Shown here: in pieces, positions 5,407 to 24,634 of the stretch
Numbering within the stretch: the first letter of the stretch is position 1
How the letters are laid out: each line of letters starts with the position of its first letter
Assembly: GCF_040932485.1 (NCBI RefSeq)
Contig: NZ_JBFRBH010000001.1
Coordinates: 3,584,212-3,648,211 of the forward strand
Reading direction: 5' to 3'
DNA: 64,000 bases
Source of the DNA: Gymnodinialimonas sp. 202GB13-11
GTDB lineage: Bacteria; Pseudomonadota; Alphaproteobacteria; Rhodobacterales; Rhodobacteraceae
Made by a program: the position numbers and the translations under genes
Notes under the pieces: generated by a model
Databases searched by the model: none
What the model saw: only the letters and a program-made list of their open reading frames with translations
What the model was told of the DNA's origin: nothing

Positions 5407-7362
5407 TCAAAGCGAGATGCGGAACCGCGCAAATCCATCAGGTCCATCGCCTGCGGGCTCAATCGTCACGCCCGGCACATCTTCGGCATAGGTCGCGCCC
5501 GCCGGGCCGGTGTCGAACAGAACCGTGGTTCCCTCCATCGGTGCGAAGGTCCAGTTCGCATCGGCCGACGGGCTCACGGTGCCTTGCTCCACGATGTAGC
5601 GAACGATCACGTCCCGGTTGGTGTCGGGCCCTTCGAAGATGATCGTTTCAGGCGAAGCACCAGGGAAGTTGCCACCGCCACCGGCGCGGTAATTGTTGGT
5701 GGCAACGATGAACTCCTGCGCGTCATCAATTGGCTCTCCATTGTAGACCAAATCGACGATGCGGTGTGTGTCCGAAACGACTTCACCATCGTTGTTGTAC
5801 CTCGATGGCTGGCTCAGATCGATGCGGTACGTCACGCCGTCGATGACATCGAAGTTGTAGGATGGGAAATCCGGGTTCAGCAGAACCTGATCTTCGACGC
5901 CCGGCTCGATCTGGTTGAACATGCCTGCGCTGCGTTCCAACCATTCGCGCACCTCGGCCCCGGTGATCCGAACCGCGCGGACGGTGTTTGGGTAAAGGTA
6001 AAGGTCGGCTACATTGCGGATCGCCACGTCGCCTGCCGGAACATCCGTGTAGTATTCCGGTCCACCACGACCGCCCGCCTTAAACGGAGCAGCTGCGGAC
6101 AAGATCGGAAGGCCCTCATGGTCCGTGCCTTCCATCATCTGTTGGATGTACCAAGTTTGCGCATTTGAGACGATCTGGACCGAAGGATCGTCAGCCACCA
6201 GTGCGAAGTAGGAATGCAGAGGTGCATCCGTGCTACCGACGGCGCGCCGCACATAGGCAAGGGTTGCGTCATGTTCTTCCTGCACAGAAGCAAGGATCGT
6301 TTCGTCGCTTTCCACCAACGCAGTGACAGAACGGTCCTCTTCCCGGCGTGAGATCGGGCGTGCCTCCGACGTATGCGTCATCACGCGCCAGCCGTTGCCG
6401 TCGCGTTCCAACATCAGGTCAATCAATCCCATATGGCTGCCCCAATATCCGCCCATCGCGGCGGGTGTGCCCATGATCGTTCCGGCCTCCACATCGACAC
6501 CGGGTGTGTCCGCGTAGTCAGGCCCGGGGAAGACACGGTGATGGTGGCCCGTAAGAATTGCATCGACACCTTCAACAGCTGCAAGCGGGATCGACGCATT
6601 CTCCATCAAGTCGACGGCTTCGGCCCCGCCAATGCCCGAATGGCTAAGTGCAATGACGATATCCGCACCTTCTTCACGCATCTGCGGGATCCACGCTTCC
6701 GCCGCCTCAACGATATCGCGGGTCTGCACATTTCCTTCCAGATGGCGGCGATCCCAAACCATGATCTGTGGTGGTACGAATCCGATCATGCCGATGCGGA
6801 TCGGATGCGTTTCGCCGGCCCCATCCGTAATCTCGCGATCTAGTATCACGTAGGGATCGAACAGCAGACTGTCCTCAGTCGGGGTACCACCCAATTCGCG
6901 GGCAACATTGGCCAGAACTATGGGGAAATCCGCGCCCTGCATGGAGTTCATGAGGAAATCGAGGCCGTAGTTGAATTCGTGGTTGCCGATGGTCGCACCA
7001 TCGAACCCAACCGCGTTCATGGCCGTAATGATTGGGTGTGCATCGCCCTCGGACATGCCGCGTTCGTAGGCCATGTAATCGCCCATCGGATTGCCCTGAA
7101 GAAAATCTCCATTGTCCAGCAGAAGGGAGTTCGCCGACTCCGCTCTCACGTCATTGATCAGGGACGCAGTCCGCGCGAGCCCCACGGTATCAACCTCCCG
7201 GTCGCCGTAATAATCATAGGGAAAGATGTGAACGTGCAGGTCCGTGGTTTCCATGATCCGCAAATGCGCCTGACCCGCCTGCGCGCGAGCTGAAAAGGGG
7301 TGGAGCGCAATGAAGCCAGCGGTCGAGGCAAGAAACGCGCGGCGGTCTAATAGCAACGGCAT
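5407..7362 (-). CDS. cpdB: Bifunctional 2',3'-cyclic-nucleotide 2'-phosphodiesterase/3'-nucleotidase precursor (651 aa)
   Basis: CpdB-type enzymes hydrolyse extracellular 2',3'-cyclic nucleotides and 3'-nucleotides in the periplasm. A twin-arginine leader (LDRRAFLAS, then a hydrophobic stretch ending ARAQA) predicts Tat export. The metallophosphatase domain at about 33-290 shows TTDLHVHIFPYDYYG, then GDFLQGNP, then GNHEFNYG, and GHHHRVFPG. The C-terminal 5'-nucleotidase domain follows, at about 380-570 (NNYRAGGGGNFPG). Length matches the family. It stands alone between the Lin0512 pair and the Rieske operon. Its likely role is phosphate and nucleoside scavenging. Confidence 0.9.
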   Translation of the reverse strand: MPLLLDRRAFLASTAGFIALHPFSARAQAGQAHLRIMETTDLHVHIFPYDYYGDREVDTVGLARTASLINDVRAESANSLLLDNGDFLQGNPMGDYMAYERGMSEGDAHPIITAMNAVGFDGATIGNHEFNYGLDFLMNSMQGADFPIVLANVARELGGTPTEDSLLFDPYVILDREITDGAGETHPIRIGMIGFVPPQIMVWDRRHLEGNVQTRDIVEAAEAWIPQMREEGADIVIALSHSGIGGAEAVDLMENASIPLAAVEGVDAILTGHHHRVFPGPDYADTPGVDVEAGTIMGTPAAMGGYWGSHMGLIDLMLERDGNGWRVMTHTSEARPISRREEDRSVTALVESDETILASVQEEHDATLAYVRRAVGSTDAPLHSYFALVADDPSVQIVSNAQTWYIQQMMEGTDHEGLPILSAAAPFKAGGRGGPEYYTDVPAGDVAIRNVADLYLYPNTVRAVRITGAEVREWLERSAGMFNQIEPGVEDQVLLNPDFPSYNFDVIDGVTYRIDLSQPSRYNNDGEVVSDTHRIVDLVYNGEPIDDAQEFIVATNNYRAGGGGNFPGASPETIIFEGPDTNRDVIVRYIVEQGTVSPSADANWTFAPMEGTTVLFDTGPAGATYAEDVPGVTIEPAGDGPDGFARFRISL

Positions 7363-7529: not shown

Positions 7530-9506
7530 TCAAACGAGTTCTGCGTCCGACATCACTTCGACCAACGCCGGACCATCCACTGAAAGTGCTTCCGCAATTG
7601 CGCTTTCAAGGTCCGCGCGCTCCGTTACTTTCGTGCCATGCGCCCCACAAAGACGTGCGAATGCCGCGAAGGATGGATTGACCAGTGAGGTCTCCCAAAC
7701 CGGCCATTCGCCGGCCCGCTGCTCTTTCGAGATTTTGCCAAGCTCATCGTTGTGCAGGAGGATATGGGTGATATCCATCCCGTACTTCACCGCCGTTGTC
7801 AGCTCCATCGCGTATTGGCCGAAGCCGCCGTCACCCGAGATCGAAATCACCTTCCGACCACGGAACTCCTCAAAATCCTGCGTTGCAGCCCATGCGCCCA
7901 TCGCGGCCGGTAGTGAGAAGCCGATGGAACCGAGATAACCCGACATCATCACCCGTTGCCCCTTGGTTTCGAAGTATCGACCAAAGGAATACGTGTTGTT
8001 GCCCACATCGACTGCAATCAGCGCATCGTCGGGCACCAGCTTGGAAAGCGCGTCGAAGATCGCTACGGAATGCACGCCTTTCGCGCCTTCTTCTTTCAGG
8101 CGGTTCTTCTTTTCATCTCGCCACATCTGCCACCGCTCAGCCAAATCGCTTAGCTGATCCTCAGCATCAGCGGGTCGCGTGACGCGCGGCGCGATTGCAT
8201 CGCAGAACGCGCCAATCTCGCCCCAGACGGGCAGGGTAACAGGGTGAAATTTCCCGAGCTGCATCCGCTCGAAATCCACCTGAATGGTTGGTTTCGATTT
8301 CTCGATGCCTGTGTGGTTCGAAAAGGACGCGCCCAAGACGATCTGAAGATCGCACTCGTTCATGAACCAACTTGCGATGGGCGTCCCTGACCGACCCAGA
8401 ACACCTGCCGCGTTTGGGTGGCTGTCGGGGATTAGCCCCTTACCTTTGAACGTCGTAACCACCGGCGCGCCAAGCACTTCGGCCAATGCGATGATCTGAT
8501 CGCGCGCCTCCCACGCGCCATGGCCAATGATGATCATCGGGCGCTTGGCGTTTGCGATCAGATCAAGCGCGGCATCCACGTCTGCGTCTGACGGTTTGAC
8601 GATTGGCCCGCTCAGCCGACCTTCCGGGGTCGCTGCTTCAGCATCACTGGGAATGGTCTGCACATCGTCAGGGAAGATCAGGTTCGCCACATCGCGTTCC
8701 ACAAGCGCAGTTTTCATGGCGAGCGACACAAGCTCGGTATGGTTGGAGGAGGGGAGGACCGGCTGCGAAAACCGGCTCACCGCCTCAAATGCCGATTTCA
8801 GATCGATGTCCTGAAACGCGCCGGGCCCGAAGACCTGCGTCTGCACTTGGCCGGTTAGGGCTAGCACCGGCGCGCGATCCACCTTGGCATCCCACATGCC
8901 GGTCAGAAGGTTTGTCGCACCAGGACCTGCAATCGCAAGACAGGCCGCCGGTTTGCCGGTCAATTTGCCATAGGCGGAAGCAGCAAAGGCCGCAGCGCCT
9001 TCATGGCGGATACCGACATAGGCCATCTCACCATCCGCCACCCGCCGCCGGATCGCATCGGCCAGCCCAAGGTTGGAATGACCCACCATCCCGAACACCC
9101 GCTTCAGCCCCCAATTCACCATGGTCTCCGCCATAGCGTCCGTCACCGTCCGCTCATGCTCCGGTTCTGAATCCAGCCCGACAAAGATCTCACCGTCACG
9201 CACATCGACCGGATAAGTCTTCTGACCTGTATCTTCATGGCCACCCGGAGGCGCGCCTGTAAGCGGGTCGAAATCCCAACCATGCCAGGGGCAACGGATC
9301 CAGCATTGCCCTTCCACGCCTTTTTCGATTGTGCCTTCACCCAAAGGTCCACCCTGATGCGGGCACCGATTGTCCATTGCAGCCCATTGGCCATCAAAGT
9401 GTGAAAGGCAAAGAGACGTGGTGCGCGCAGTTACGGTTTTCACGCGTCCCTCGGGCAAATCCTCAACACGACCGACTGAAATCCAATCCAGCGTTTCATC
9501 CGTCAT
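7530..9506 (-). CDS. Rieske [2Fe-2S] domain fused to a thiamine-diphosphate-dependent enzyme (658 aa)
   Basis: Residues about 5-112 are a Rieske ferredoxin-like domain with ligands C48, H50, C72 and H75 (CPHQGG and CPWHGWDF). Residues about 118-658 are a full pyruvate-oxidase/acetolactate-synthase family ThDP enzyme: the cofactor-activating glutamate is E169 in GIRHEGAAAF, and the ThDP/Mg site starts at 558 (GDGGFGQ, with HND about 28 residues later). I start at the ATG at 9504-9506, with GAGGAG upstream; a longer frame to 9566 lacks homology. The start overlaps the preceding gene by 11 nt, making it the last gene of the operon. A redox-linked 2-oxoacid decarboxylation or oxidation is inferred; the substrate is unknown. 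Confidence 0.85.
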   Translation of the reverse strand: MTDETLDWISVGRVEDLPEGRVKTVTARTTSLCLSHFDGQWAAMDNRCPHQGGPLGEGTIEKGVEGQCWIRCPWHGWDFDPLTGAPPGGHEDTGQKTYPVDVRDGEIFVGLDSEPEHERTVTDAMAETMVNWGLKRVFGMVGHSNLGLADAIRRRVADGEMAYVGIRHEGAAAFAASAYGKLTGKPAACLAIAGPGATNLLTGMWDAKVDRAPVLALTGQVQTQVFGPGAFQDIDLKSAFEAVSRFSQPVLPSSNHTELVSLAMKTALVERDVANLIFPDDVQTIPSDAEAATPEGRLSGPIVKPSDADVDAALDLIANAKRPMIIIGHGAWEARDQIIALAEVLGAPVVTTFKGKGLIPDSHPNAAGVLGRSGTPIASWFMNECDLQIVLGASFSNHTGIEKSKPTIQVDFERMQLGKFHPVTLPVWGEIGAFCDAIAPRVTRPADAEDQLSDLAERWQMWRDEKKNRLKEEGAKGVHSVAIFDALSKLVPDDALIAVDVGNNTYSFGRYFETKGQRVMMSGYLGSIGFSLPAAMGAWAATQDFEEFRGRKVISISGDGGFGQYAMELTTAVKYGMDITHILLHNDELGKISKEQRAGEWPVWETSLVNPSFAAFARLCGAHGTKVTERADLESAIAEALSVDGPALVEVMSDAELV

Positions 9507-9777
9507 CGTGAGGCTCCTCTGTCGGTGTGAAGAAATCAAAAATCTTCTGCAGAATTGAAAGTGCAAGGAAGAATGCCACGACCCAGATCAACAGCTCGTA
9601 GGGCGCAAAGTCAGTGCCCCGCAGCCAACGCGCGAGAAGTCCGCCTTGCGGGCGCAGCGCTTCGATCCCGAACAGGCCGTCTCGGTCCCAGAGGCGGAAA
9701 TCCCAAAAGCGTGAGATGTAGTAGAACCACAGACCGAGCAGCGCGGTGAGGCTGAGAAACAGGATGCGGCGGATCAT
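9496..9777 (-). CDS. Small two-helix membrane protein of the Rieske operon (93 aa)
   Basis: I do not recognise a named family. There are two hydrophobic segments, about residues 4-22 (ILFLSLTALLGLWFYYI) and 62-82 (YELLIWVVAFFLALSIL), with a charged linker rich in Trp and Arg between them. It overlaps the upstream gene by 4 nt and the downstream Rieske-ThDP gene by 11 nt, so it is certainly part of the same transcript. A membrane anchor or assembly role for the redox partners is inferred. Confidence 0.7.
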   Translation of the reverse strand: MIRRILFLSLTALLGLWFYYISRFWDFRLWDRDGLFGIEALRPQGGLLARWLRGTDFAPYELLIWVVAFFLALSILQKIFDFFTPTEEPHDDG

Positions 9778-10541
9778 TCGACCACCGTCACTGTGTCTGT
9801 ATCCACGGTCAGAACCAGCAGATCACCGTGGCGAGATACGTCGCCTTCCAGCGTCACATAGAGACCAACATAATCAAGCAGGGCGGGGGGTGTTGTTTCG
9901 TCCCCTTCACCCGCGATCAGCAGAAACTCCTCACCCTCAATGGGTTGCGTCGTGACGAATACTGGTGGCACGCCGCCCAGAAGGCATAGATTTGCGCAGG
10001 CGCGATGCGAGATCCCGCGGCCGGGGCGCATTGCACCTGCCTCGCACTTGCCGTCACATATTTCACCAGTGATTTCCCAGCGGCCCAATGGTTCGGGTTC
10101 CGGAATATCCGGGATCACACTCTGATCATCGGCCGCGCGAAAGTTATTGCCACCGTTAAGCTGCAACATATCCAGGCCGCCACGTTGGAGCAGAATGCCT
10201 GTGGCCTGCACCAATTGACCTTCCAGCGCCTGCGCACGGTCCACCGCACCATTCTTGCCCTGCCCGGAAAGCATCAATGTGTGACCTTCGGGGATGGCAT
10301 CGGTGCCTTGTGTGACATGCAGTACCGGCGATGGTGTCATCTCCAACACGCCGATCACTGTCTGGGGTCCAAAATCGAACCGCAGTCGACCGTCGCCCGG
10401 GTCATCCTGGGTCGAGGCGATGGCGTAGCCAAGCAACCCGGCGCCTGCGAACAGGACCAGAGAAGCGGCCAGCAGAAACAGGCGCAGTCCGGGCGGACAA
10501 GGCAGATAGCCGACAAAGAACGGCTCATCCCGGTTGCTCAT
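9774..10541 (-). CDS. Membrane-anchored protein with a conserved-looking Cys/His cluster (255 aa)
   Basis: One membrane segment lies at about residues 20-42, leaving a large periplasmic domain. Near the middle of that domain is a compact Cys/His cluster, C162, C166, H179, C182 and C186 (CDGKCEAG, PGRGISHRACANLCLLGG), that could bind a metal or form redox-active thiols. I do not know a function for it. It overlaps both neighbours by 4 nt (ATGA). Its position directly after the ferric-reductase-like/Rieske gene suggests that it docks with or matures that protein (inference). Confidence 0.75.
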   Translation of the reverse strand: MSNRDEPFFVGYLPCPPGLRLFLLAASLVLFAGAGLLGYAIASTQDDPGDGRLRFDFGPQTVIGVLEMTPSPVLHVTQGTDAIPEGHTLMLSGQGKNGAVDRAQALEGQLVQATGILLQRGGLDMLQLNGGNNFRAADDQSVIPDIPEPEPLGRWEITGEICDGKCEAGAMRPGRGISHRACANLCLLGGVPPVFVTTQPIEGEEFLLIAGEGDETTPPALLDYVGLYVTLEGDVSRHGDLLVLTVDTDTVTVVE

Positions 10542-11593
10542 GGCATCGCCTCCTGCGTGGCTTGAACCGGTTCAACTGGCGTACCCGGCGCATTCGGAAC
10601 CGGGTCGACGAACACTTCATCCTGCTCAAGCCGGAGGCGGTATGTTGGCACCTTCTCTGTGAAGGGTGCGGGAGAGCGACCGGTGCGGACGTCATATTGA
10701 AAGCCGTGCCACGGGCAGGTGACGATGCAATCGATGATGCGCCCTTCTCCCAAGGGGCCATTCTGGTGCGCGCAGGCATTTGAGATTGCGCTCAATTGCC
10801 CCTCATGTCGAAAAACCGCAACGCGCTTGCCATCTGGCAAACGCGCAATAATCGCACGTCCTTCGGCGATGTCAGAAGCATTGCCGACCTTGACCCAATC
10901 CGTACCGGCCGCGTGCGGATCAACGCGCCGCTCTTTCCAAGCGGCAGCGATATGCAGGCCCGCAACAACAAGCGCACCGGCGCTGAAGATCGCAGCCATA
11001 GTCTCATTGCCGCGTGATTGAAAAGCGCCAAGCGCCACATGCCCAACCACCGCGACATAGGCCGGGTAAATGAGGAAATGAATCGCCTTCCAAACCGGGG
11101 GCGTAAGGAACTTCAGCCAAAAGTCATGGCTTGTTGCTGCAAGAATTAGAAGACACAGCAAGGCGAAGATCCCCAGCGCCTCAAACGGAAAGCCAAGCAC
11201 CTGTCCATAGCTGGTATTGGCGAACAGAACTGTTTCCCAGCGCTCTGCTCCGCGGAAGAATGCGAAGTACCATCCAAGAACGAAGTATGCGTGGGTCATC
11301 GCCACAGCTGCTGTCATCACACCGAAATGGCGCCGATTGTAGAGCAGGGGCAGAAAGCGCCGATCGAGGCGCGCCAAAGGTCCGATGCACAGGATAACCG
11401 TCAGCATAACAAATGCGCATGCCCCGAATGCTCGGGCATTTGCGATCGGCGGGTTCACAGGGAATTCATGGTTCAATGCGCCAGGCGCAACCGAAATGAA
11501 AAGCCACAGGAACAAAGCAATTCCGGCCAACATTACTGCATCGTAGACCCACTTCGAGGTATTCCATTGAACCGGCGTATATTTGACGCTCAT
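10538..11593 (-). CDS. Ferric-reductase-like transmembrane domain fused to a Rieske [2Fe-2S] domain (351 aa)
   Basis: The N-terminal half has about six hydrophobic segments of the ferric reductase/MsrQ-like haem b membrane domain; candidate haem ligands are H89, H101, H172 and H185 (RRHFGVMTAAVAMTHAYF and IHFLIYPAYVAVVGH). The C-terminal part, about 230-330, is a Rieske domain with C274, H276, C293 and H296 (CAHQNG and CPWHGFQYD). The fusion would pass electrons between the membrane haems and a [2Fe-2S] centre. It overlaps the genes on both sides by 4 nt. The electron donor and acceptor are inferred to be the soluble Rieske fusions of the same operon. Confidence 0.88.
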   Translation of the reverse strand: MSVKYTPVQWNTSKWVYDAVMLAGIALFLWLFISVAPGALNHEFPVNPPIANARAFGACAFVMLTVILCIGPLARLDRRFLPLLYNRRHFGVMTAAVAMTHAYFVLGWYFAFFRGAERWETVLFANTSYGQVLGFPFEALGIFALLCLLILAATSHDFWLKFLTPPVWKAIHFLIYPAYVAVVGHVALGAFQSRGNETMAAIFSAGALVVAGLHIAAAWKERRVDPHAAGTDWVKVGNASDIAEGRAIIARLPDGKRVAVFRHEGQLSAISNACAHQNGPLGEGRIIDCIVTCPWHGFQYDVRTGRSPAPFTEKVPTYRLRLEQDEVFVDPVPNAPGTPVEPVQATQEAMP

Positions 11594-11964
11594 TCGCTCG
11601 TCTCCGGTGCAGAGATCTGAGTTGGCGGTAGATCAGCCGGCCAAGTCTGGCGAACGGCAAAAGATGCTAGAAGTGCGGCAACGATCAGCACAGCCATGAA
11701 AATGGCCGCCAGCCCATGTGCCTTGCGCGGTGGCGCATAACGGGCACTATGATCGGCGCGACCTGTCTCTTCACGCAACCAGCGCCACAGCACCAGCGGC
11801 CAGATCAAGAGGATCGCCGGTACGAGCAGGGGCCTGAACGCGTAAGCGCCCCGCGCGTCCTCATCGATGCGGTCCATCCCAATGGTTAGAAAGGCCAAAG
11901 CGACGACGGCTCCGATCATGCAATAGCCTTGGGCCAGCCATATAAGCGTTGCCGCAGCACTCAT
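11590..11964 (-). CDS. Small membrane protein of the Rieske operon (124 aa)
   Basis: I do not recognise a named family. Three hydrophobic segments are visible at about residues 5-28, 44-62 and 86-105. The first two are joined by an acidic loop (MDRIDEDARGAYAF); a WPLVLWRW stretch closes the second segment. It overlaps the Rieske-glutamate-synthase-like gene upstream and the ferric-reductase-like gene downstream by 4 nt each. It is probably a structural subunit of the membrane complex (inference). Confidence 0.72.
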   Translation of the reverse strand: MSAAATLIWLAQGYCMIGAVVALAFLTIGMDRIDEDARGAYAFRPLLVPAILLIWPLVLWRWLREETGRADHSARYAPPRKAHGLAAIFMAVLIVAALLASFAVRQTWPADLPPTQISAPETSE

Positions 11965-13571
11965 GCCATGCCGCCATAGCTAACACCGGACAGGTCAGCC
12001 ATGTCCCGTTTCCAAGTGGTCAGGTCGTCGCGGTTAAATTCGGACAAATGCGAATGACCGCATGCCCGCGCCATCACTTGCATCAACTCGACGGACGCGT
12101 CGAAGAAGTTCGCGAGCCGCTTTGCGGATTTCTCCACTATGATGCGGCTGACCAGATTGGGTTTCTGCGTGGCGATGCCGACGGGGCAATTGTTCGTGTG
12201 ACAGGCCCGCATGGCAAGGCAGCCAATGGCCTGCATGGCGGAGTTTGAAACTGCAATTGCGTCAGCCCCCAGAGCCATCGCCTTGATGAAATCGGCCGGT
12301 TTGCGCAGGCCACCGGTTATCACCAGAGTGACATCCCCACGCCCCATTTCATCCAGATGTCGCCGCGCACGGGCAAGGGCTGGGATGGTCGGTACGCTGA
12401 TATTGTCACGGAACAGGATCGGCGCGGCCCCGGTGCCGCCGCCACGTCCGTCGAGGATGATGTAGTCGACGCCAACCTTCAGCGCTGCATCGATGTCTTT
12501 CTCGATATGCTGCGCGCTGAGCTTGTAGCCGATGGGAATGCCGCCTGTGCGATCCCGGACTTCATCCGCGAAATCCTTGATCTGCACCGGATCGGTCCAT
12601 TCCGGGAATCGCGCTGGCGAAATGGCATCTTCGCCCTCGTCGATGCCTCGAACGTCAGCGATCTTGCCCTTGTTTTTCGCTCCGGGCAGGTGCCCACCGG
12701 TGCCAGTCTTAGCGCCCTGACCGCCCTTGAAATGAAACGCTTGCACGCGGTCGAGCTTTTCCCATTCGAACCCAAATCGAGCTGAGGCGAGCTCATAGAA
12801 ATAGCGTGAATTCGCCTCCTGCTCTTCTGGAAGCATGCCGCCTTCGCCGGAACAGATCCCGGTACCTGCCATCTCTGCCCCTTGGGCCAACGCGATCTTG
12901 GCTGGCTCGGACAGCGCTCCGAATGACATGTCGGATACAAAGAGAGGGATTTTCAGACGCAACGGTTTCTGTGCGTTCGGCCCGATCACAACCTCGGTGC
13001 CGACGGGGTCGTCCTCCAGTAAAGGCGGCTTGTGGAGCTGAGCCGTCAAAAGCTGAATGTCGTCCCAACTGGGCAATTCATCACGCGGTACGCCCATCGA
13101 ATCCATGGCGCCGTGATGCCCGGTCTTGGATAACCCATCGCGCGCGTAGCGTTGTATTAACGCGTTGTGCGGCTCTTCAGCGGTTCCATGCGAAGTGTCG
13201 GCGTATAGCCCAAGGTAAGCATCCCGGTTGAAGGGCTGGGGATTGTCGTCGGCCCAAGTCGCAATCTCATCCTCGTCCACCAGAACGTCATCGCCCTCGA
13301 CCCAGGACGAGAATTTCGGAAGCTTTTCTTCGTTCGCGTATTCTGAAACGCCCGTATCCAGCCGGTAGTCCCAATCATGCACACCGCAGATTAGGTTCTT
13401 TCCGCGCACGAACCCGTCGGACATAAGAGCGCCCCGGTGCAGGCATCGCCCGTAAAAAACCGAGATTTCATCGTCGAAACGCACCACAACCAAATCGACA
13501 TCTGCGACGAGCGCGTATTGCGGATCCCTGTCGGGCAACGCGCTGAGCTGTGCGACGGCGACTTTCTTCAT
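11961..13571 (-). CDS. Rieske domain fused to an FMN-binding glutamate-synthase-like domain (536 aa)
   Basis: Residues about 1-100 form a Rieske domain with C43, H45, C62 and H65 (CLHRGALMS and CGVHDWDY). Residues about 150-536 are the FMN-binding central domain of glutamate synthase (GltB2 family): FVSDMSFGALSEPA, then IILDGRGGGTGAAP, and a [3Fe-4S] cysteine triad C451, C457, C462 (CLAMRACHTNNCPVG). The glutaminase and C-terminal GltB domains are absent, so classical GOGAT activity from glutamine is unlikely without a partner. The ATG at 13571 has AAGGGA upstream and is the first gene of the six-gene operon. The reaction is unknown. Confidence 0.88.
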   Translation of the reverse strand: MKKVAVAQLSALPDRDPQYALVADVDLVVVRFDDEISVFYGRCLHRGALMSDGFVRGKNLICGVHDWDYRLDTGVSEYANEEKLPKFSSWVEGDDVLVDEDEIATWADDNPQPFNRDAYLGLYADTSHGTAEEPHNALIQRYARDGLSKTGHHGAMDSMGVPRDELPSWDDIQLLTAQLHKPPLLEDDPVGTEVVIGPNAQKPLRLKIPLFVSDMSFGALSEPAKIALAQGAEMAGTGICSGEGGMLPEEQEANSRYFYELASARFGFEWEKLDRVQAFHFKGGQGAKTGTGGHLPGAKNKGKIADVRGIDEGEDAISPARFPEWTDPVQIKDFADEVRDRTGGIPIGYKLSAQHIEKDIDAALKVGVDYIILDGRGGGTGAAPILFRDNISVPTIPALARARRHLDEMGRGDVTLVITGGLRKPADFIKAMALGADAIAVSNSAMQAIGCLAMRACHTNNCPVGIATQKPNLVSRIIVEKSAKRLANFFDASVELMQVMARACGHSHLSEFNRDDLTTWKRDMADLSGVSYGGMA

Positions 13572-13693: not shown

Positions 13694-15091
13694 TTAGGCT
13701 TGGCTCGGCAGCCAGAGCACAATCCACGGGAAGGCCACCAGAAGGGCAATCGTGATCGCATCAGCAATGAAGAACGGCGTCACTCCACGGAAAACGTCCT
13801 GAACGCTGAGGTCATCCCGCACACCGGCCACCACGAAACAGTTGAGGCCGATGGGCGGCGTGATCAAACAGAACTCCGCCATCTTCACGACCAATATCCC
13901 GAACCACACCGCACACATGGGCCCGGACATGCCGAACGTGCTGTCTGCGGCAGACACATCCAGCCCCCCGTTCAGCGCCATAACGGCCGGGAAGACCACG
14001 GGAAGCGTCAGTAGCAACATACCGATGGCATCCATGAACATTCCCAACACGGCATAGGCCAAGAGAATGCAAACCAGGATTAGCATCGGCGACATTTCAA
14101 GCGCCGTAATCCAGTCAGAGAAGACACCGGGCAAATCAGCGAAGCCAAGGAAGCGGACGTAAATTAGCACGCCCCAGATGATCGAGAAAATCATCACAGA
14201 CAGTTTCGCGGTCTCGATGAGGGCGCTCTTGAGTTCAGGCCACCGCATGCCTTTGTAAAGCGCCATGCAGAAGACGATGAACGCGCCAACGGCTCCACCT
14301 TCGGTCGGTGTGCCCCAGGCATCGCCGAACGGGTTATAGACGAAGAAGATGATGATCACGACAACTGCTACGATGGGCAGGGCCGGGGGCAATGAAGCAA
14401 AACGCTGGCCCCAAGTGAATCCGGTAACTGGCGGGCCGAACCCCTTGATCGTCAGGGCCATGCCAATGATCAAAAGCGCATACACGAAAGCCGAGAAGAT
14501 GCCGGGTATGAACCCAGCCAGAAGCAGCATCCCAACATCCTGCTCGACGATGATCGCATAGATCACAAGGATTGCCGATGGTGGGATCAGCGAGGCGAGC
14601 GTTCCGCCGGCGGCGACGACACCCGCAGCAAAGCGCTTGTCATAGCCGACCTTGAGCATTTCGGGAATTGCGATGCGGGCAAAAACGGCTGCGGTCGCCA
14701 CGGAGGCTCCGGAAACGGCGGCAAAGCCTGCTGTTGAGAAAACGGTCGATACGGCTAGCCCGCCAGGCACCCAGGCGATCCAGCGTTTCGCTGCCTCGAA
14801 CAGCGCACGGGTCAGGCCCGCGTGATAGGCGAGAAAGCCGATCAGGATGAAGGTCGGGATCAGGCTGAGCGCCTGATTAGCGACCTTGGCATGGGGCACC
14901 TGGCCTGCGGTCTTTACCGCAACCTCAAGCGCCCACCAGATATCTTCGACGCCAAAATCGCGCCGGGCCCAGTTGATTAGGAAAAGTCCGATCAAGCCAG
15001 CGATTGCCGTCGCATAGGCCACCCGCATGCCAAGGACCACCAGCACCAGCATTCCGCCGGTGACCCAGAGACCGATTGTTGTGCTGTCCAT
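13694..15091 (-). CDS. dctM: TRAP transporter large permease, DctM type (465 aa)
   Basis: This is the large membrane subunit of a tripartite ATP-independent periplasmic transporter, which carries out Na+-driven uptake with the DctP receptor and DctQ. The sequence is hydrophobic throughout, with about 12 segments, and contains typical DctM stretches such as FAAVSGASVATAAVFARIAIPEM and GGTLASLIPPSAILVIYAI. The start at 15091 overlaps the DctQ stop by one base (TGATG); the longer frame to 15208 lies inside dctQ. Substrate is probably a carboxylate but is not defined by sequence. Confidence 0.9.
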   Translation of the reverse strand: MDSTTIGLWVTGGMLVLVVLGMRVAYATAIAGLIGLFLINWARRDFGVEDIWWALEVAVKTAGQVPHAKVANQALSLIPTFILIGFLAYHAGLTRALFEAAKRWIAWVPGGLAVSTVFSTAGFAAVSGASVATAAVFARIAIPEMLKVGYDKRFAAGVVAAGGTLASLIPPSAILVIYAIIVEQDVGMLLLAGFIPGIFSAFVYALLIIGMALTIKGFGPPVTGFTWGQRFASLPPALPIVAVVVIIIFFVYNPFGDAWGTPTEGGAVGAFIVFCMALYKGMRWPELKSALIETAKLSVMIFSIIWGVLIYVRFLGFADLPGVFSDWITALEMSPMLILVCILLAYAVLGMFMDAIGMLLLTLPVVFPAVMALNGGLDVSAADSTFGMSGPMCAVWFGILVVKMAEFCLITPPIGLNCFVVAGVRDDLSVQDVFRGVTPFFIADAITIALLVAFPWIVLWLPSQA

Positions 15092-15720
15092 CAGTCCCGC
15101 CCCGTCACTTGGCTGGCCTCGGCAGCGGCCTGTTCTTCGATTGTAGGCGTGAAGGGCACCGCGGCCGGGCGGTCCAGTCCCAGAAACAGGGCACGCCCGT
15201 AGGCCCAAACTTGCAACGCCGCGCGAAGGGTCAGGACAACGAAAGCCAGAACCACGGCCAGTTTTGCGGGCCAGATGGGCAGGTTGATGTCGATGGAGCT
15301 ATCGCGGCTCCAATTCGGACGGCTGAAATCAAAGCTGCGGTCAAAATGTGCCCAAGCGCCCCAAAGGAGGAGTGCAATCAACAAAAAGACCAGGATGGTC
15401 ATAAACAATTCTACCGCCCAGAGCGCGCGCCCGCGGAATGCGCCGATGACGATGTCCATGCGGATATGGCTGCCGGTGCGTTGCACGTAGGAAATGCCGA
15501 AAATCGCGATGAACGGCATCGCCATTTCAATCCAGTCAACATAGCCGCGCAGAGGGGAGCCAAAGAATTCGCGCCCGCCGACCGAGAAGACGGCAAGAAA
15601 CATGAGGCCGAATGTGAATAGGCCACTGACGACAATCATCGCCGTTTCAATCGGCAGAAGCATGCGGTCGAGACGGCTGACAAGGCTGTCGTCCGTCAGC
15701 ACCGTGTTGGCACTCGACAT
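15091..15720 (-). CDS. dctQ: TRAP transporter small permease, DctQ type (209 aa)
   Basis: This is the four-helix small membrane subunit that couples DctP to DctM. Hydrophobic segments occur at about residues 27-50, 68-85, 105-125 and 155-175. The family-typical region is visible around GREFFGSPLRGYVDWIEMAMPFIAIFG. It follows dctP by 66 nt and overlaps dctM by one base. Confidence 0.88.
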   Translation of the reverse strand: MSSANTVLTDDSLVSRLDRMLLPIETAMIVVSGLFTFGLMFLAVFSVGGREFFGSPLRGYVDWIEMAMPFIAIFGISYVQRTGSHIRMDIVIGAFRGRALWAVELFMTILVFLLIALLLWGAWAHFDRSFDFSRPNWSRDSSIDINLPIWPAKLAVVLAFVVLTLRAALQVWAYGRALFLGLDRPAAVPFTPTIEEQAAAEASQVTGRD

Positions 15721-15786
15721 GGGTTTGGGTCCCTGAGATTGGGACGGCCCTGCCCCGATGAGGTGGGCAGGGCCGTCGAAAGGGCT

Positions 15787-16797
15787 TTAGTTGCCCTGAG
15801 CTTCGGCGAGGGTGCTCAGCACGAGGTCATAGAGTTCCTGTGCCGGAAGGCCTTGTCCGGCCATTTCCTCGATCCATGCTGCGTGCAGCGGAGTCGCCGC
15901 CTCGCGGAAGGCGTCGAGTTCGGCTTGATCAATCTCAACCCGCTCAACACCGTTTTCCTCAAGGACACCGTCCCAACGCTCAATGAGTTCGGCGTAGTTG
16001 GCGAGGTAATGATCGAGCGACTCTTCAATGGCGCCATCAAGCGCAGCACGATGCTCGTCCGACAGATCCTCATAAGCGTCGATATTCACGACGACAGGGC
16101 AGTTCACGGTGCCTGGGTTGAGGTTCGCGGTCCACCAATCGGCTTCGTTGATGGTGCCGAACGACAGGTGCGCGTGCTGTGCAAACGCCACGGTATCGAC
16201 AACGCCACCCTGCATGGCCTGGAAGGCTTCGGTTGCGGTCACCGAAGTCGGCACGCCGCCCACAGCCTCAAACGCACGACCGAGGCCGCCGGTGGCACGT
16301 ACGCGCATCCCGTCGAAGTCTGCCAGCGTCGCAGGTGGCTCGCCGGTGCCGACGAGGTTGTACTGGGGCATGGGCGAAGTCATCAGAAGCATCGCGTTCC
16401 ACTGCGCCATTTCCTCGGCCACGGCGGGATGATTGTAGACGGCGGTGGCGACGGCGACTTCCTCTTCCAGCGTGTTCACGCCAAGGAACGGCAGCTCCAG
16501 CACGGTGATCGCGCGGTTCTTGTCGGCGTGGTAGCCGGCGCAGAACTGTGCCATCTCGAATGCGCCGATGGAGATGCCATCGAGGTTTTCACGGTTCGAG
16601 GACAGGCCACCGTAGGAAATGTTCAGAGTGAATTCGCCACCCGTGCGCTCATCCAGCAGCTCTGCCAGACGCTCAACATGTTCGGTAAACGCGCGGCGCT
16701 GACCCCAAAGGGACACGTTCCATTCGACTGCGAAGGCCTCGGAACCAATAGTGATGGCAAGGGTTGCGAGAGCCGTGCGGCTCAGAAGCTTTTGCAT
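15787..16797 (-). CDS. dctP: TRAP transporter substrate-binding protein, DctP type (336 aa)
   Basis: This periplasmic receptor delivers the substrate to DctQM. A Sec signal peptide spans about residues 1-21 (KLLSRTALATLAITIGSEAFA). The conserved arginine that binds substrate carboxylates lies in GMRVRATGG. I start at the ATG at 16797, which has GGGAGGACATC just upstream; a longer frame to 16893 has no leader character. It is the first gene of the dctPQM operon and follows dctBD on the same strand, consistent with control by that two-component system. Confidence 0.9.
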   Translation of the reverse strand: MQKLLSRTALATLAITIGSEAFAVEWNVSLWGQRRAFTEHVERLAELLDERTGGEFTLNISYGGLSSNRENLDGISIGAFEMAQFCAGYHADKNRAITVLELPFLGVNTLEEEVAVATAVYNHPAVAEEMAQWNAMLLMTSPMPQYNLVGTGEPPATLADFDGMRVRATGGLGRAFEAVGGVPTSVTATEAFQAMQGGVVDTVAFAQHAHLSFGTINEADWWTANLNPGTVNCPVVVNIDAYEDLSDEHRAALDGAIEESLDHYLANYAELIERWDGVLEENGVERVEIDQAELDAFREAATPLHAAWIEEMAGQGLPAQELYDLVLSTLAEAQGN

Positions 16798-16900
16798 GAT
16801 GTCCTCCCTAGATGTCATGCGATCATGATGTGACGCGAAGTATGCGGCCTGTTTCAGGCTCTGTTTATGAAGAAATCCGCGCCGCGTCGGCACTGTGCTC

Positions 16901-16917: not shown

Positions 16918-18258
16918 CTATAGCAGAGCGTCCTTGTCGAGGCCAAGTTTCACGATTTTCTCGTTCAGGGTCCTGCGGCCAATCCCCAGTGCATCTGCGA
17001 CGTCATCCATCCGCCCGGCGTTCGCGGAAATGGATTTCGCAATCATCTCCCGCTCCAACTCAGCGACGGCGGCGCGCAAAGTTTCCGGGCGTGCATCGTC
17101 CTCAAGGTCGGGCTTAATTGCTAGTGCTAAGCTGCCCGTTCCTTGACGAGCGGCAAGCACCCTGCGTTCCGCCACGGCCCGCAATTCGCGCACATTGCCG
17201 GGCCAATCATGGGCAAGGGCCGCTGCAAGATCCGCAGCCGTCACGTCCGGCGCTGTGACACCGTAGACCACCGACAATTGGCCGATGAAATGCGCCAGCA
17301 GTGGCCGCAGGTCTTCCTGCCGGTGGCGAAGTGGCGGAAGTTCAAGCGAAAATGTGTTCAACCGATAAAGCAGGTCTTCCCGAAAACGCCCGGACGCAAC
17401 CGCGTCTGCCACGTTTTCATTCGTTGCTGAAATCACCCTAAGGCTTACCGGCACAGGTGCGCTAGCCCCCTCTGGCGTCACTGCGCCCTCTTCCAATACC
17501 CGTAAGAATTGCGCCTGAACTTCGGATGGGCAGGCACAGACCTCATCAAGGAATAGCGTGCCTCCATCAGCCTGCAGAATGCGACCGTTCAAATGACCTT
17601 CCGTGCCAAACATCTCAGGCACAAAGGTGTCAGGCGATAGCAGCGCGCAATTGATTGCCACGAACGGTTGATCAGACGCAGGTCCAAGGTCATGCAGCGC
17701 GCGGGCCACCAGATCCTTACCAGTTCCGGTCTCGCCCGTGACCAGAACCGGCGCGCGCGTTTCAGCCAGATCGGCAATGCTTGTACGAAGAGCGCGCAGC
17801 GATGGTGATGTTCCGACCAGGATGCGATCCAGCCCCGACAACTGCGCCAGTCTTTGCCGCAGGCGCTTGTTGCTGTTGCGCATTCTCGTCTGCTCCGCAG
17901 CATGGCGCAGAATGTTGAGCAATCGCCTTGGCTCGTAGGGCTTCTCGACGAACGAATATGCTCCGTTCTGCATGGCTTCGACAGCCATGGGAATGTCGCC
18001 GTGAGCCGTTACGAGGACAACGGGGACTGGGTGCCGCGATTGAACTGCGCTCAGCAGCTCCAAACCGGACATGCCAGGCATGCGGACATCGGAAAGAACC
18101 ACGTCCGCATCGAACTCATCCATGGCGGAAATCGCGCGATCAGCGCGGGCCACATCCCGGACACGCCAGCCGTCAGCCTCAAGCAACTCGACAACGGATT
18201 GGCGCATTGATCGGTCGTCTTCGACAATCAGCGCGCGGAACGGAGCGTCAGATGTCAT
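16918..18258 (-). CDS. dctD: DctD-type response regulator lacking the GAFTGA loop (446 aa)
   Basis: The domain order is receiver (about 1-125, phosphoacceptor in VVLSDVRMPG), AAA+ central domain (about 145-370; Walker A GETGTGKD, Walker B GGTLFLDEV, arginine-finger region FREDLLYRLN) and Fis-type HTH (about 405-446). Where other enhancer-binding proteins have GAFTGA, this one reads EMFGTEGHLNGRILQADGG, about eight residues shorter. GAFTGA contacts sigma-54, so this regulator probably cannot work through sigma-54, as known for Rhodobacter NtrC. It overlaps dctB by 4 nt and lies upstream of dctPQM. Confidence 0.88.
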   Translation of the reverse strand: MTSDAPFRALIVEDDRSMRQSVVELLEADGWRVRDVARADRAISAMDEFDADVVLSDVRMPGMSGLELLSAVQSRHPVPVVLVTAHGDIPMAVEAMQNGAYSFVEKPYEPRRLLNILRHAAEQTRMRNSNKRLRQRLAQLSGLDRILVGTSPSLRALRTSIADLAETRAPVLVTGETGTGKDLVARALHDLGPASDQPFVAINCALLSPDTFVPEMFGTEGHLNGRILQADGGTLFLDEVCACPSEVQAQFLRVLEEGAVTPEGASAPVPVSLRVISATNENVADAVASGRFREDLLYRLNTFSLELPPLRHRQEDLRPLLAHFIGQLSVVYGVTAPDVTAADLAAALAHDWPGNVRELRAVAERRVLAARQGTGSLALAIKPDLEDDARPETLRAAVAELEREMIAKSISANAGRMDDVADALGIGRRTLNEKIVKLGLDKDALL

Positions 18259-20024
18259 TGCGCCGCGACTTCCTCTGCCATGCGTTTAGAAAGCACCATT
18301 CGAAAAACAGCCCCCTTTTTATCCTGCCGATTGCGCGCGTCCAGCCTGCCGCCGTGATCGTCCATGATGCCTGATGAAATCGCCAAACCCAGACCCATTC
18401 CCTGGCCGCTGGCACGCGTCGTCATGAACGGCTCGCGAAGTTCAACCAGTGTTGCATCGCCTAAGCCGGAACCAGTGTCAGCAACCTCGACCCACACCTC
18501 TTCTCCTTCAGCTCCGTAGCTGATTTCGAGCATTGAATGTTCGGCATCTTCCATCGCATCAACGGCATTGCGCATGATGTTCGTTAGAACCTGCTCCAAC
18601 CGCAGGCGCGAACCGCGGACCGTTATAGGAGCCTCCGGCCGCTCATGTGAAACCGTGACGCCAAACGCTTCAACTCCTGGAATCATCAATTCCAATGCTG
18701 CATCTGCGCACTCCCTCAGGTCGACGTCTTCAAAGGGTTCAGACCGAGATCTTGCGAAGAATTTCAAGTCGCGCGCGATGCCTTCCATACGATCGACCAG
18801 ACCGCCGATGGTTTGCGTCAGCTTGCTCGGACTATGTTTTATTTCGTGCGCTGCGAGTTGATTGCGCATCGCCGCAATGGGCTGGCCCAATTCGTGCGTG
18901 ACCGAGGCGGAAAGCTTTCCAAGGGCGGCCAACCGGCTTGCGCGCTCCAACTCACCGCGTGTTTCCTCAAGCCGCATTTCGGTGCGCCGCCGCTCCTCAA
19001 TTTCGCGGGCCAAGGCGGCGTTCGCGCGCCTTAATTGTACCTCTTCCTCTTCGGACCGCCGCAGGGCTTGCCCCAATCGCCTGCCCCTTTGATATTGCGC
19101 AAACAGCAGACCCAAAGCCGAGATGGCGAAAAAGGCGCCCGTCGCGAGCCACGCCCTTAGCACAGCGCTGTCGTTGCGGCGCAAGTAATGTAGTTGCCAG
19201 CTGTGCGGCAGACCCGCGTTCACGACGTGAAGGCGCCACGAGCCATCAATCTCAGCCCATCTCGGCTCAGCTTCCGCGTTCCAATCCAGTGCCTCTAGAG
19301 CTTGTCCTGGAAACTGCCGTGCCACTTCGATCCGCGCACGTTCTTCTTCTGAAAGCGGATCAAGGGCGCGGTATCGCCAAGTTGAATCAGAGGCCAGAAG
19401 GACCACGTCGTGCTGGTCCGTCAGGAAAACCTGTTCTCCGGCATCACGCCAAGCCTGCTCAAACGGGGCGAGGTTCAGCTTGAGGGCAACAACTCCGATC
19501 ACCTCACCTTCATCATCCAAGACGGGGTCCGCGATGAAGTAGCCGGGAAGTCCAGTTGTGGCTCCAATGCCGTAGAACGTGCCAGTTCCGCCGTTCAGCG
19601 CCGTCTGGAAATATGGACGGAAATCATAGGATTGTCCGACGAAGCTTCCGGCCTCATCGGCGTTGGAGGCCGCTATTGTAAGGCCGTTCGGCTCCATCAC
19701 GTAAATTGCGTCCAGCCCTGCCGCGCCTGCAAATAAGTTCAAGCGTTCATTCAGGTCCTCCAACCCGTCACCCTGAAGCCCTGAGAAGACGAACGGATCA
19801 ACGGCAAGCACCTGGGTCAGATGTTCGAAACGCTCGATCTCCGACAAAACAGTGCTGTGATAGAGTGACATGCGCGCTTCGGCGCGCTGCAGTTCCTGCG
19901 CTGTGAAATAGCGGTATGTGCCAGCCCAGACCCCCAAGGCGACAAAGAGCGCCAGCAACGCAAGCAGAGCAATTGGCGCCTTTTGCTTTCCACTACTGGA
20001 AGTTGCAGAGGGTTTGGTTTCCAC
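18255..20024 (-). CDS. dctB: DctB-type sensor histidine kinase (589 aa)
   Basis: This membrane sensor is the partner of DctD. A membrane segment at about residues 18-36 and another at about 290-310 enclose a periplasmic double-PAS-like (dCache) sensor domain. A cytoplasmic coiled region leads into the H box (LGKLSASVTHELGQPIAAMRN, about residue 375), followed by an ATPase domain with NIMRNAVDAMEDA, DTGSGLGDA and GQGMGLGLAIS. Its stop overlaps the dctD start by 4 nt. The ligand is presumably a carboxylate taken up by DctPQM (inference). Confidence 0.9.
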   Translation of the reverse strand: METKPSATSSSGKQKAPIALLALLALFVALGVWAGTYRYFTAQELQRAEARMSLYHSTVLSEIERFEHLTQVLAVDPFVFSGLQGDGLEDLNERLNLFAGAAGLDAIYVMEPNGLTIAASNADEAGSFVGQSYDFRPYFQTALNGGTGTFYGIGATTGLPGYFIADPVLDDEGEVIGVVALKLNLAPFEQAWRDAGEQVFLTDQHDVVLLASDSTWRYRALDPLSEEERARIEVARQFPGQALEALDWNAEAEPRWAEIDGSWRLHVVNAGLPHSWQLHYLRRNDSAVLRAWLATGAFFAISALGLLFAQYQRGRRLGQALRRSEEEEVQLRRANAALAREIEERRRTEMRLEETRGELERASRLAALGKLSASVTHELGQPIAAMRNQLAAHEIKHSPSKLTQTIGGLVDRMEGIARDLKFFARSRSEPFEDVDLRECADAALELMIPGVEAFGVTVSHERPEAPITVRGSRLRLEQVLTNIMRNAVDAMEDAEHSMLEISYGAEGEEVWVEVADTGSGLGDATLVELREPFMTTRASGQGMGLGLAISSGIMDDHGGRLDARNRQDKKGAVFRMVLSKRMAEEVAAQ

Positions 20025-23330: not shown

Positions 23331-23383
23331 GCCGGACGTTCCCTGCCCGCCGCGCGCTCCGGGGCGGTGGGCAGGGGCTCAAA
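23328..23383. terminator. Strong hairpin between convergent genes
   Basis: CCCTGCCCGCC (23341-23351) pairs with GGTGGGCAGGG (23366-23376) with one G-T pair, and an outer TGAGCC/GGCTCA pair extends the stem. It lies between the convergent secreted-protein and ureG genes and could serve both strands, although neither side has a long T tract. Confidence 0.65.
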
Positions 23384-23990
23384 CCCCTCCGACTTCACAA
23401 ATCAGAGCTTTCACATCATCGACGCCGTGCCGTGACTTCAGGGTTGCGAAAACGGTCGGCTTTTCCGGCCGCATTCGCTTTGAATCCCGATCCATGATCG
23501 ACAGATCCGCCCCGACATGAGGCGCGAGATCGGTCTTGTTGATCACCAAAACATCCGACCGCGTTATCGCAGGCCCACCTTTTCGCGGAATTTCTTCGCC
23601 AGCAGCAACGTCGATCACGTAGATCGTGAAATCCGCCAATTCTGGGCTGAACGTGGCCGACAGATTATCTCCACCGCTTTCGATAAGAACCAGATCAAGG
23701 TCCGGGTGACGCGCTGACATCTCAGCGACGGCTGCGAGGTTGATAGACGCATCTTCGCGGATTGCGGTGTGCGGGCATCCCCCGGTCTCGACACCCAAAA
23801 TGCGATCCGATGGAAGCACCTGCATGCGCATCAGCGCTTCGGCATCCTCCTGTGTGTAGATGTCATTCGTAATGGCCGCGATGGAATGTGTGTCCTTGAA
23901 GGCTTCACATAGGGCAGCTGTCAGCGTTGTTTTTCCGGCACCAACGGGGCCGCCGATCCCAACCCGCAAGGGGCCATTCGGGCTGGTCAT
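23379..23990 (-). CDS. ureG: Urease accessory GTPase UreG (203 aa)
   Basis: UreG is the SIMIBI-class GTPase that drives nickel delivery to urease. The P-loop [11 protein letters not shown] lies at residues 13-23, followed by the metal-binding Cys-Pro-His ([16 protein letters not shown]), [15 protein letters not shown] and the [13 protein letters not shown] guanine-specificity motif. Length is standard. The start overlaps the ureF stop by 4 nt; ureG is the last gene of the operon. Confidence 0.97.
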
Positions 23991-24634
23991 GTTCTGAATA
24001 TCCTCGAATATTGGGTTTCATGCCGCATCGACGCAATGTCACCGATGAACGCGGTTGAACTGAGACGTGAGAGATCGCCGTCCGCTGCATCTTCGGCGAC
24101 GTCGCAACAGGTCGCCGCAAGGTCCCTCAAAAGGCCTTGAGCCTCGGTCTGGCCGATGGGGGCCAGCCGTTGCGCGCAAGCTATCAGGTTCGACATCATG
24201 GCTTGCAACGCCACGCGAAGGGTGAGGTTCAGCGGCAGGCCTTGCAGCTTTGCAGCACGCCCGAGTGCCACAGGATAAGTCAGTTTCCCGGTTGCTTGCG
24301 CCCAGACTGCGTCCGTCACTTTCCCGAAGGCCACGCCAATCTGTTCTGTTTCCAACAGTCTCTCCCGCGATGGGCAGAACGCGCGTGCGGTTGCGTCGAT
24401 GTCGATCACGTCCTCAGCGGTTTCGGCATGCCATGCTGCCGCAATGAAGCGAGCATCATTTGCCCCAGCGCCATACCGCAAAACGTCCTCAAGCCATTTA
24501 CGCAGGGCGCAGACATCGCGAACATGGCCGTCCTCAACCACCGACTCCAAGCCATGGCTATAGGCAAACGCGCCAACCGGATAGGCGGGCGACAGCCACT
24601 GCGTCAGCGTCAGGATAGGGTCGCTAATGGTCAT
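23987..24634 (-). CDS. ureF: Urease accessory protein UreF (215 aa)
   Basis: UreF helps assemble the UreDFG activation complex on apo-urease. The family N-terminus [21 protein letters not shown] is visible as consecutive segments, then a helical domain with [11 protein letters not shown] start at the ATG at 24634; a longer frame to 24712 lies inside ureE. It overlaps ureE by 11 nt and ureG by 4 nt. Confidence 0.94.

Follow-up and report, generated by a model that had tools for sequence, protein, structure and literature searches.

Thiamine diphosphate (ThDP) enzymes acting on 2-oxo acids are known to drain their electrons into quinone, as PoxB does, or into ferredoxin, as in the 2-oxoacid:ferredoxin oxidoreductases. 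Membrane proteins with a ferric reductase domain (FRD) of the YedZ/STEAP type, in which an Arg replaces the first haem His, include Rieske-bearing bacterial members, listed as module M4 in the section of PMC3591440 that deals with them, and fusions of CDGSH domains with a Glu_synthase core are already in print, in the relevant part of PMC5859297. Here we describe a six-gene operon of Gymnodinialimonas sp. 202GB13-11 in which three enzymes or membrane proteins each carry a Rieske domain. It lies in a stretch of 64,000 nucleotides (nt) of contig NZ_JBFRBH010000001.1 (positions 3,584,212 to 3,648,211), the whole of which is hereafter called the window, and its genes are labelled A to F in transcription order. 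Tentatively, and with somewhat less than even confidence, we read the operon as a Rieske-based electron-transfer system that links cytoplasmic 2-oxo-acid chemistry to a transmembrane haem conduit. As far as we searched, it is a conserved assembly of known families; among the titles and opening lines of abstracts listed by an open-licence library (subscription papers and preprints lay outside the scope), no description of the combination was found. The author of an earlier note, made from the letters of this DNA, knew of no characterised pathway with this set.

The operon comprises six genes on the minus strand, running from 13571 to 7530, and open reading frame (ORF) analysis places overlaps of 4, 4, 4, 4 and 11 nt at its successive junctions. 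The earlier note had reported six genes with five such overlaps, complete Rieske ligand sets in A, C and F, and a different partner for each Rieske domain; the ORF coordinates agree exactly, the pattern C-x-H...C-x2-H was found in all three proteins, and Pfam names the partners as Glu_synthase (A), Ferric_reduct (C) and TPP_enzyme_N/M/C (F, all three domains present). Its view of the remaining products as three small membrane proteins holds for B and E and falls short for D, where a single N-terminal hydrophobic segment precedes a domain some 218 residues long; in none of the three did a Pfam family score above its cut-off. The ratios of nonsynonymous to synonymous substitution rates (dN/dS) against a species of the same genus (L237; handles in L denote loci, those in G genomes) are low, at 0.034 for A, 0.077 for B, 0.021 for D, 0.028 for E and 0.015 for F, so that these five genes look functional and under purifying selection, even if the values are rough, with synonymous sites near saturation, and C, being saturated, yields none.

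Gene F (7530..9506, 658 amino acids) encodes a Rieske domain (residues 8-88, 9243..9485; ligands C48, H50, C72 and H75; PF00355, E 4.6e-17) followed by a pyruvate-oxidase-like ThDP enzyme (residues 120-651, 7554..9149; PF02776/PF00205/PF02775). Its start is the ATG at 9506, the TTG at 9566 merely giving an upstream extension. Alignments of the core proteins combined the window sequence with the homologues of suitable length (42 of 88 for A, 38 of 43 for C, 40 of 44 for D and 32 of 38 for F). In that of F, the Rieske ligands and the candidate catalytic Glu, E169, are kept in all 33 sequences, the window included, and conservation extends to many positions in the middle (nucleotide) domain. F falls below the curated cut-off of every one of the 25 NCBIfam models shown (59 in total), the best being pyruvate oxidase PRK08611 (387.6 bits against a cut-off of 742) and PRK09124 reaching 310.3 against 792. 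Its nearest solved relatives are the structures 3EYA and 3EY9, named pyruvate dehydrogenase [cytochrome], which we take to be PoxB of Escherichia coli. By its domains F is predicted to bind ThDP and, probably, flavin adenine dinucleotide (FAD).

A protein of about 285 amino acids recurs beside F in ten loci (L129, L135, L140, L144, L146, L153, L163, L182, L183, L214) and beside A in L143; in L140 it matches DUF5996 weakly, below the cut-off. A Haloferax plasmid (L045) has an annotated pirin at a distance of about 5 kb from F, and pirin-like genes are found in stretches with BCD (L057, L058), with A alone (L189, L190, L192) and with the CDGSH form of the core of A described below (L217, L219).

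Gene A (11961..13571, 536 amino acids) joins a Rieske domain (residues 4-85, 13317..13562; ligands C43, H45, C62 and H65; PF00355, E 9.1e-12) to a glutamate-synthase-like core (residues 190-505, 12057..13004; PF01645, E 5.1e-89). Invariant in all 43 aligned sequences, the window included, are both the Rieske ligands and three cysteines of the core, C451, C457 and C462, which presumably hold a [3Fe-4S] cluster, going by the glutamate synthase family. Judged by its domains, A is the half of glutamate synthase that carries flavin mononucleotide (FMN) and the [3Fe-4S] cluster, without the glutaminase domain: Pfam gave no match to a class II glutaminase in A, and against the GltB equivalog model A scores 128 bits, below the cut-off of 1047. 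The relatives of A, as the best 80 kept by the scan, are of full or nearly full length and 70-88% identical. The copy in L163 (10001-11604) is split over two reading frames, either a broken copy or a sequencing error.

The same core also exists without the Rieske domain. Among 149 genomes of the family, 12 match it at 68-70% identity from residue 126-129 on, and in all five that were read out of ten such loci (L077, L079, L082, L083, L085) two CDGSH motifs stand at the N-terminus, with Pfam confirming them at one locus. In a phylum-wide sample of 398 genomes, whose counts are lower bounds because at most three candidates were scored per genome, 27 of the 38 matches to the core of A begin at residue 109-130; this start position suggests that they too are CDGSH forms, which would probably make that form the commoner one in the sample. 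Two unrelated [2Fe-2S] folds thus occupy the same place on one core, which is good evidence, at the level of domain architecture, that the N-terminal domain of A serves to deliver electrons to or from the [3Fe-4S]/FMN centre. In the stretches of five loci with the CDGSH core (L216-L220) no homologue of F or C was found.

Gene C (10538..11593, 351 amino acids) combines a YedZ/MsrQ-like ferric reductase membrane domain (residues 57-182, 11048..11425; PF01794, E 5.4e-10) with a Rieske domain (residues 232-318, 10640..10900; PF00355, E 8.4e-16). All 39 aligned sequences, the window included, keep the Rieske ligands, the histidines H89, H101, H156, H172, H185 and H214, and R87. By spacing, and without a YedZ alignment, R87-x13-H101 and H172-x12-H185 fit the YedZ/STEAP signature as given in that section of PMC3591440. 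A hydropathy scan returned five segments and missed the helix that bears H89 and H101; going by the family, C would have six helices, with its Rieske domain in the cytoplasm. Gene D (9774..10541, 255 amino acids) encodes a membrane-anchored protein whose one N-terminal hydrophobic segment is followed by a domain that is probably extracytoplasmic (periplasmic). Within a short motif (residues 160-186, 9984..10064), C166, H179, C182 and C186 are invariant in all 41 aligned sequences; a further cysteine, C162, is present in the window and replaced in 10 of the 41. This 3Cys-1His motif is a candidate metal or cluster site, and to our knowledge it matches no described family. The other two membrane proteins are B (11590..11964, 124 amino acids), with three hydrophobic stretches and no known family, and E (9496..9777, 93 amino acids), with one clear hydrophobic segment.

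In one locus, a Nitrospirales bin (L182), C and D form a single stop-free ORF of 603 amino acids. The same gene run holds A, F and, adjoining F, an alpha carbonic anhydrase, which would fit a release of CO2; the anhydrase is also present in the related L183. The suggestion of the earlier note that the reaction is wired through membrane haems gains plausibility from the YedZ-type haem residues and from this shared ORF, while the electron steps themselves are those of the model set out below. The run (L182:538-11979) further encodes a cysteine-dioxygenase-like protein (CDO_I), a B-like protein, an EamA transporter, a glutathione-synthetase-like ATP-grasp protein and a 291-amino-acid protein with no Pfam match. 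Elsewhere, on the Rhizobium plasmids L041, L042 and L060 and in L055, BCD shares its stretch with an acetolactate-synthase-like ThDP enzyme that has no Rieske domain and with an OpgC-like protein, which take the place of A and F.

In a tree of the Rieske domains, A, C and F each have a clade of their own (nine chosen rows apiece). The domains of C and F group with the NirD-like Rieske protein of the genome and that of A lies apart; identity is 36.8% (72 bits) between C and F and 37.1% (65 bits) between F and the NirD-like protein. The common module that the earlier note saw in these domains is, as regards origin, not borne out, as they represent three separate lineages. The window contains a fourth Rieske protein outside the operon, where NirB (over its cut-off) is followed by a NirD-like Rieske protein of 109 amino acids (50912-53673); next to it, at 53670-56291, is a protein whose similarity to formate dehydrogenase or assimilatory nitrate reductase stays under the cut-offs.

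The distribution of the genes among genomes ties the parts together. Of the 149 family genomes, 15 carry a full-length Rieske-bearing A (truncated in one case where the contig stops), 9 a full F and 15 a C; D occurs with strong matches in the same 15 genomes as C and weakly in three more. A is present in all nine genomes with F; C is present in eight of these nine and in 10 of the 15 with A (Fisher p 6e-11 for A with F, 7e-9 for A with C and 1e-8 for C with F, kinship ignored). In the phylum-wide sample at least five genomes have a full F, all five with A and D at operon spacing: three belong to the genus of the window (its own genome included), one to another genus and one to another family. 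The six-gene order is intact in four genomes besides that of the window, two of the same genus, one of another genus and one of another family of the class (G365, G389, G284, G233), and the E of G233 is intact. The E of L240, like DctM and DctP upstream of the operon in L237, is unbroken, the stops lying past the natural end of E and in upstream extensions of DctM and DctP.

Linkage recurs over a much wider range. We used 80 A loci, the best kept from the GTDB contig collection (more existed), with stretches shorter than 21.5 kb in 37 of them. F is in the stretch in 31 loci, C in 30, both in 16 and either in 45; at the 43 loci with at least 21.5 kb, F or C is found in 27. The linked genes stand in varying orders (A-BCDE-F, A-F, A-F-BCD, A-BCD, BCD-A-F, and F divergent from A), and the presence of F near A changes 17 times on a quick tree of A. 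By record title the linked loci belong to Pseudomonadota, Nitrospirota, Acidobacteriota and one Campylobacteraceae bin, bins being liable to mis-assignment. On plasmids of Halorarius and Salinirubellus, A (60-62% identity) and F (58-59%) lie 4.0 and 1.4 kb apart; a full F was found in five plasmid records and a full A in three of these, all three haloarchaeal. The scattering of the fusion genes without co-occurrence, which the earlier note had named as what would speak against it, was not seen: in related genomes the parts co-occur and recur in linkage. Gene content and order provide strong evidence for one system of two exchangeable blocks, the enzymes A and F on the one hand and the membrane block BCD(E) on the other.

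Our reading of how the parts work together starts from what is observed, namely the domain make-up, the invariant ligands, the co-inheritance and the fusion of C with D in one locus. As we infer the circuit, with every redox step, its substrates and cofactors, the direction of A and the membrane sidedness, F (with ThDP and probably FAD) would act on a pyruvate-class 2-oxo acid by oxidative decarboxylation and pass the electrons to its own Rieske [2Fe-2S] cluster, and not straight to quinone. This cluster would dock with the Rieske domain of C on the cytoplasmic face, from where the electrons could cross the b-haem or b-haems of C to D, whose 3Cys-1His site might act as outer acceptor or as a relay, with B and E holding the membrane complex together. 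The circuit would include A as a further enzyme, whose Rieske domain may exchange electrons with its own [3Fe-4S]/FMN core. With no need for NAD(P)H, that core would turn a 2-oxo acid and ammonia into an amino acid or carry out the reverse reaction. A wider form of this proposal, which we regard as doubtful, holds that the operon represents a redox network new to science, present in several bacterial phyla and partly on plasmids of haloarchaea. Fused Rieske domains would connect the oxidation of 2-oxo acids with glutamate-type amination, and both, by way of the YedZ-like haem protein, with the outside of the cell; neither NAD(P)H nor ferredoxin nor direct reduction of quinone would be involved, and the chain would end in a new periplasmic 3Cys-1His redox or metal site in D.

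A number of observations weigh against the electron-transfer reading. D has no recognised cofactor family, and a shared origin of the three Rieske domains had to be rejected on their separate clades. A variant in which pyruvate is turned to acetate and the acetate recovered was likewise rejected, as acetate-type neighbours (sodium:solute symporters or an acetyl-CoA-synthetase-like protein, near F or A), which would speak for pyruvate as the substrate, appear in too few loci (L143, L197, L205, L206, L212). When F was set against C near A in a phylogeny-aware pair test, for which the quick tree of A supplied 64 loci with stretches of 15 kb or more, no significance was reached (median p 0.25 from 7 pairs), although the pairs are few and the tree has long branches. 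A often stands alone, 30 of the 80 A loci having neither F, nor C, nor an NhaP-like antiporter in the stretch, and full F was absent from 29 of 37 genomes chosen because F is not near A (38 searched, many of them incomplete bins). G078 has ABCDE and no F, as does the L168 stretch, and five of the 15 genomes with C lack both A and F (G004, G008, G055, G083 and G139, in the last of which the contig ends where A would stand), as do three Rhizobium plasmid stretches that carry C. The blocks thus also have other partners, and the CDGSH form indicates that the glutamate-synthase-like core can probably work with other wiring, which counts against an obligate three-part variant in particular. The proposal of the earlier note is supported as regards a dedicated system whose parts are co-inherited. 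Against an obligate union of three parts stand A without F in many genomes, ABCDE without F, and BCD(E) without A or F.

The surroundings of the operon are less constant than its core. Upstream, on the same strand, are a tripartite ATP-independent periplasmic (TRAP) transporter (DctM, DctQ and DctP, 13694..16893) and an NtrC-type response regulator with a dCache histidine kinase (16918..20024), both linked neighbours and not core genes. DctM and DctP stand in the same place in L237 and not in L238, which belongs to the same genus, and the transporter and two-component system were rejected as core parts on the ground that they are not beside the operon in L238. In L240/L241, from another family, homologues of the kinase and regulator (35% and 42% identity) and then a TAXI-type TRAP transporter come directly after F, and in L239 and L139 another TRAP transporter is convergent to F; a DctM match is found in only three of the 80 A loci (L139, L144, L165). 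More frequent is an NhaP-like antiporter (PF00999), present in 25 of the 80 A loci, with the aligned match ending 7-103 bp upstream of A in 24 of them and the antiporter ORF overlapping A by 4 nt in L151, L167, L169 and L205. With only three PF00999 matches in the 4 Mb of the window's genome, this adjacency is unlikely to arise by chance. One of the 25 is L126:8699-9994, and an NhaP-like antiporter is also present in L047, L051, L214, L239 and L240. Other antiporters occur near F in Halorarius (a distant relative, 28% identity), in M. abscessus (within 4 kb) and in a Fidelibacterota bin; the window has no antiporter match.

Control by sigma-54 was dismissed as a signal, since the window contains 24 site matches where chance alone would give 24.15, and homarine or betaine degradation, known from Rieske oxygenase operons, was rejected, as Pfam detects no oxygenase domain in the operon and the literature listed offered a single passing match. 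Directly after F the window encodes a CpdB-like 2',3'-cyclic nucleotide phosphodiesterase (5407-7362); Hoeflea and Nitratireductor (L146, L153) have a CpdB 67-68% identical to it at a distance of 3.5 kb ahead of A. The minus strand at 23379-24712 bears genes for urease accessory functions, one for UreF and one for a protein with a CobW/HypB/UreG domain.

Other explanations draw on much of the same evidence. A and F could form a soluble pair in which F oxidises a 2-oxo acid and the electrons released power reductive amination by A, a glutamate-type synthesis free of NAD(P)H and ferredoxin, with BCDE bleeding off excess electrons. This would suit the 15 of the 80 A loci that have F without C in the stretch, the adjacency of A and F in G126 (which has no C) and G001 (where C lies elsewhere), the two haloarchaeal plasmid loci with A and F and no BCDE within their stretches, and the fact that F is never without A among the family genomes (9/9). 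We nevertheless hold it to be unlikely, as 14 of the 80 loci show C in linkage with A and no F within the stretch, A exists without F, and the overlaps across all six genes couple BCDE to both enzymes. If A instead ran in the oxidising direction, deaminating amino acids, A and F would be two dehydrogenases respiring imported substrates through C and D, with the TRAP transporter and two-component system supplying and sensing the acids. In the window and in L240/L241 alike, the operon is accompanied by a dCache kinase, a regulator of NtrC type and a TRAP transporter, albeit of DctP type in one and of TAXI type in the other, and L239 and L139 have a further TRAP transporter convergent to F. Ferredoxins of the Rieske type, being carriers of low potential, could accept electrons from glutamate-level donors. 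Glutamate synthases normally run in the synthetic direction, however, and TRAP transporters are common in marine alphaproteobacteria; together with the same-genus locus that has neither transporter nor regulator beside the operon and the rarity of DctM at the A loci, this makes oxidation by A less probable than the soluble pair.

Less probable still in our estimation would be a module for redox and ion-homeostasis stress, in which metabolic enzymes would be switched by the redox state of their Rieske domains, in connection with cation/proton antiport under saline conditions. It draws on the antiporters directly upstream of A and on those near F in Halorarius, M. abscessus and the Fidelibacterota bin; the absence of an antiporter match from the window goes against it, the conserved active-site residues favour catalysis over sensing alone, and the pair test of F with the antiporter near A, on few pairs, was not significant. 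That unrelated enzymes with a popular electron carrier have come together by chance, or as loose genes of a stress island, seems to us very improbable. A, and C with D, do each occur apart from the others, and plasmid records of Haloferax and M. abscessus have F and no A (chromosomes not searched), but overlaps at all five junctions, linkage that recurs in changed orders and extends with A and F to haloarchaeal plasmids, the low Fisher p values (1e-8 to 6e-11, kinship ignored) and the repeated changes of F near A (17 on the quick tree) are hard to square with chance.

Should the electron-transfer reading of the operon prove true, a 2-oxo-acid ThDP enzyme would have a further drain for its electrons besides quinone and ferredoxin, and a glutamate-synthase-type core would be fed by a Rieske cluster. 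It would also provide a function for database records named “thiamine pyrophosphate-binding protein”, “glutamate synthase-related protein” and “Rieske 2Fe-2S domain-containing protein”, as well as for D, a membrane protein family without a Pfam match.

Compared with the systems described so far, the operon shares much of each and departs from all of them. F aligns with pyruvate oxidase and PoxB (3EYA, 3EY9) over nearly the whole of the enzyme part, and differs from them in its N-terminal Rieske domain and in an alignment that stops near PoxB residue 530; PoxB has a membrane-binding tail on its C-terminal side, beyond this end point, so that F would be without it. With the glutamate synthases (GltB and the ferredoxin-dependent Fd-GltS), A has in common the PF01645 synthase domain and the cysteines of the [3Fe-4S] site, whereas its N-terminal Rieske domain and its length of only 536 amino acids set it apart. 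Closer are the CDGSH-Glu_synthase fusions, as far as the relevant part of PMC5859297 describes them, with a core 68-70% identical over about residues 126-535 of A and an N-terminal [2Fe-2S] centre, although two CDGSH domains replace the single Rieske domain of A. C resembles YedZ/MsrQ and the Rieske-bearing FRD proteins, as they appear in that section of PMC3591440, in the Arg-for-His exchange in the third transmembrane helix, the three canonical histidines and the extra Rieske domain; it scores 35.3 bits against the MsrQ equivalog cut-off of 130, and differs further from the YedZ/MsrQ-type proteins in its partner D, which has no Pfam match and bears the 3Cys-1His motif.

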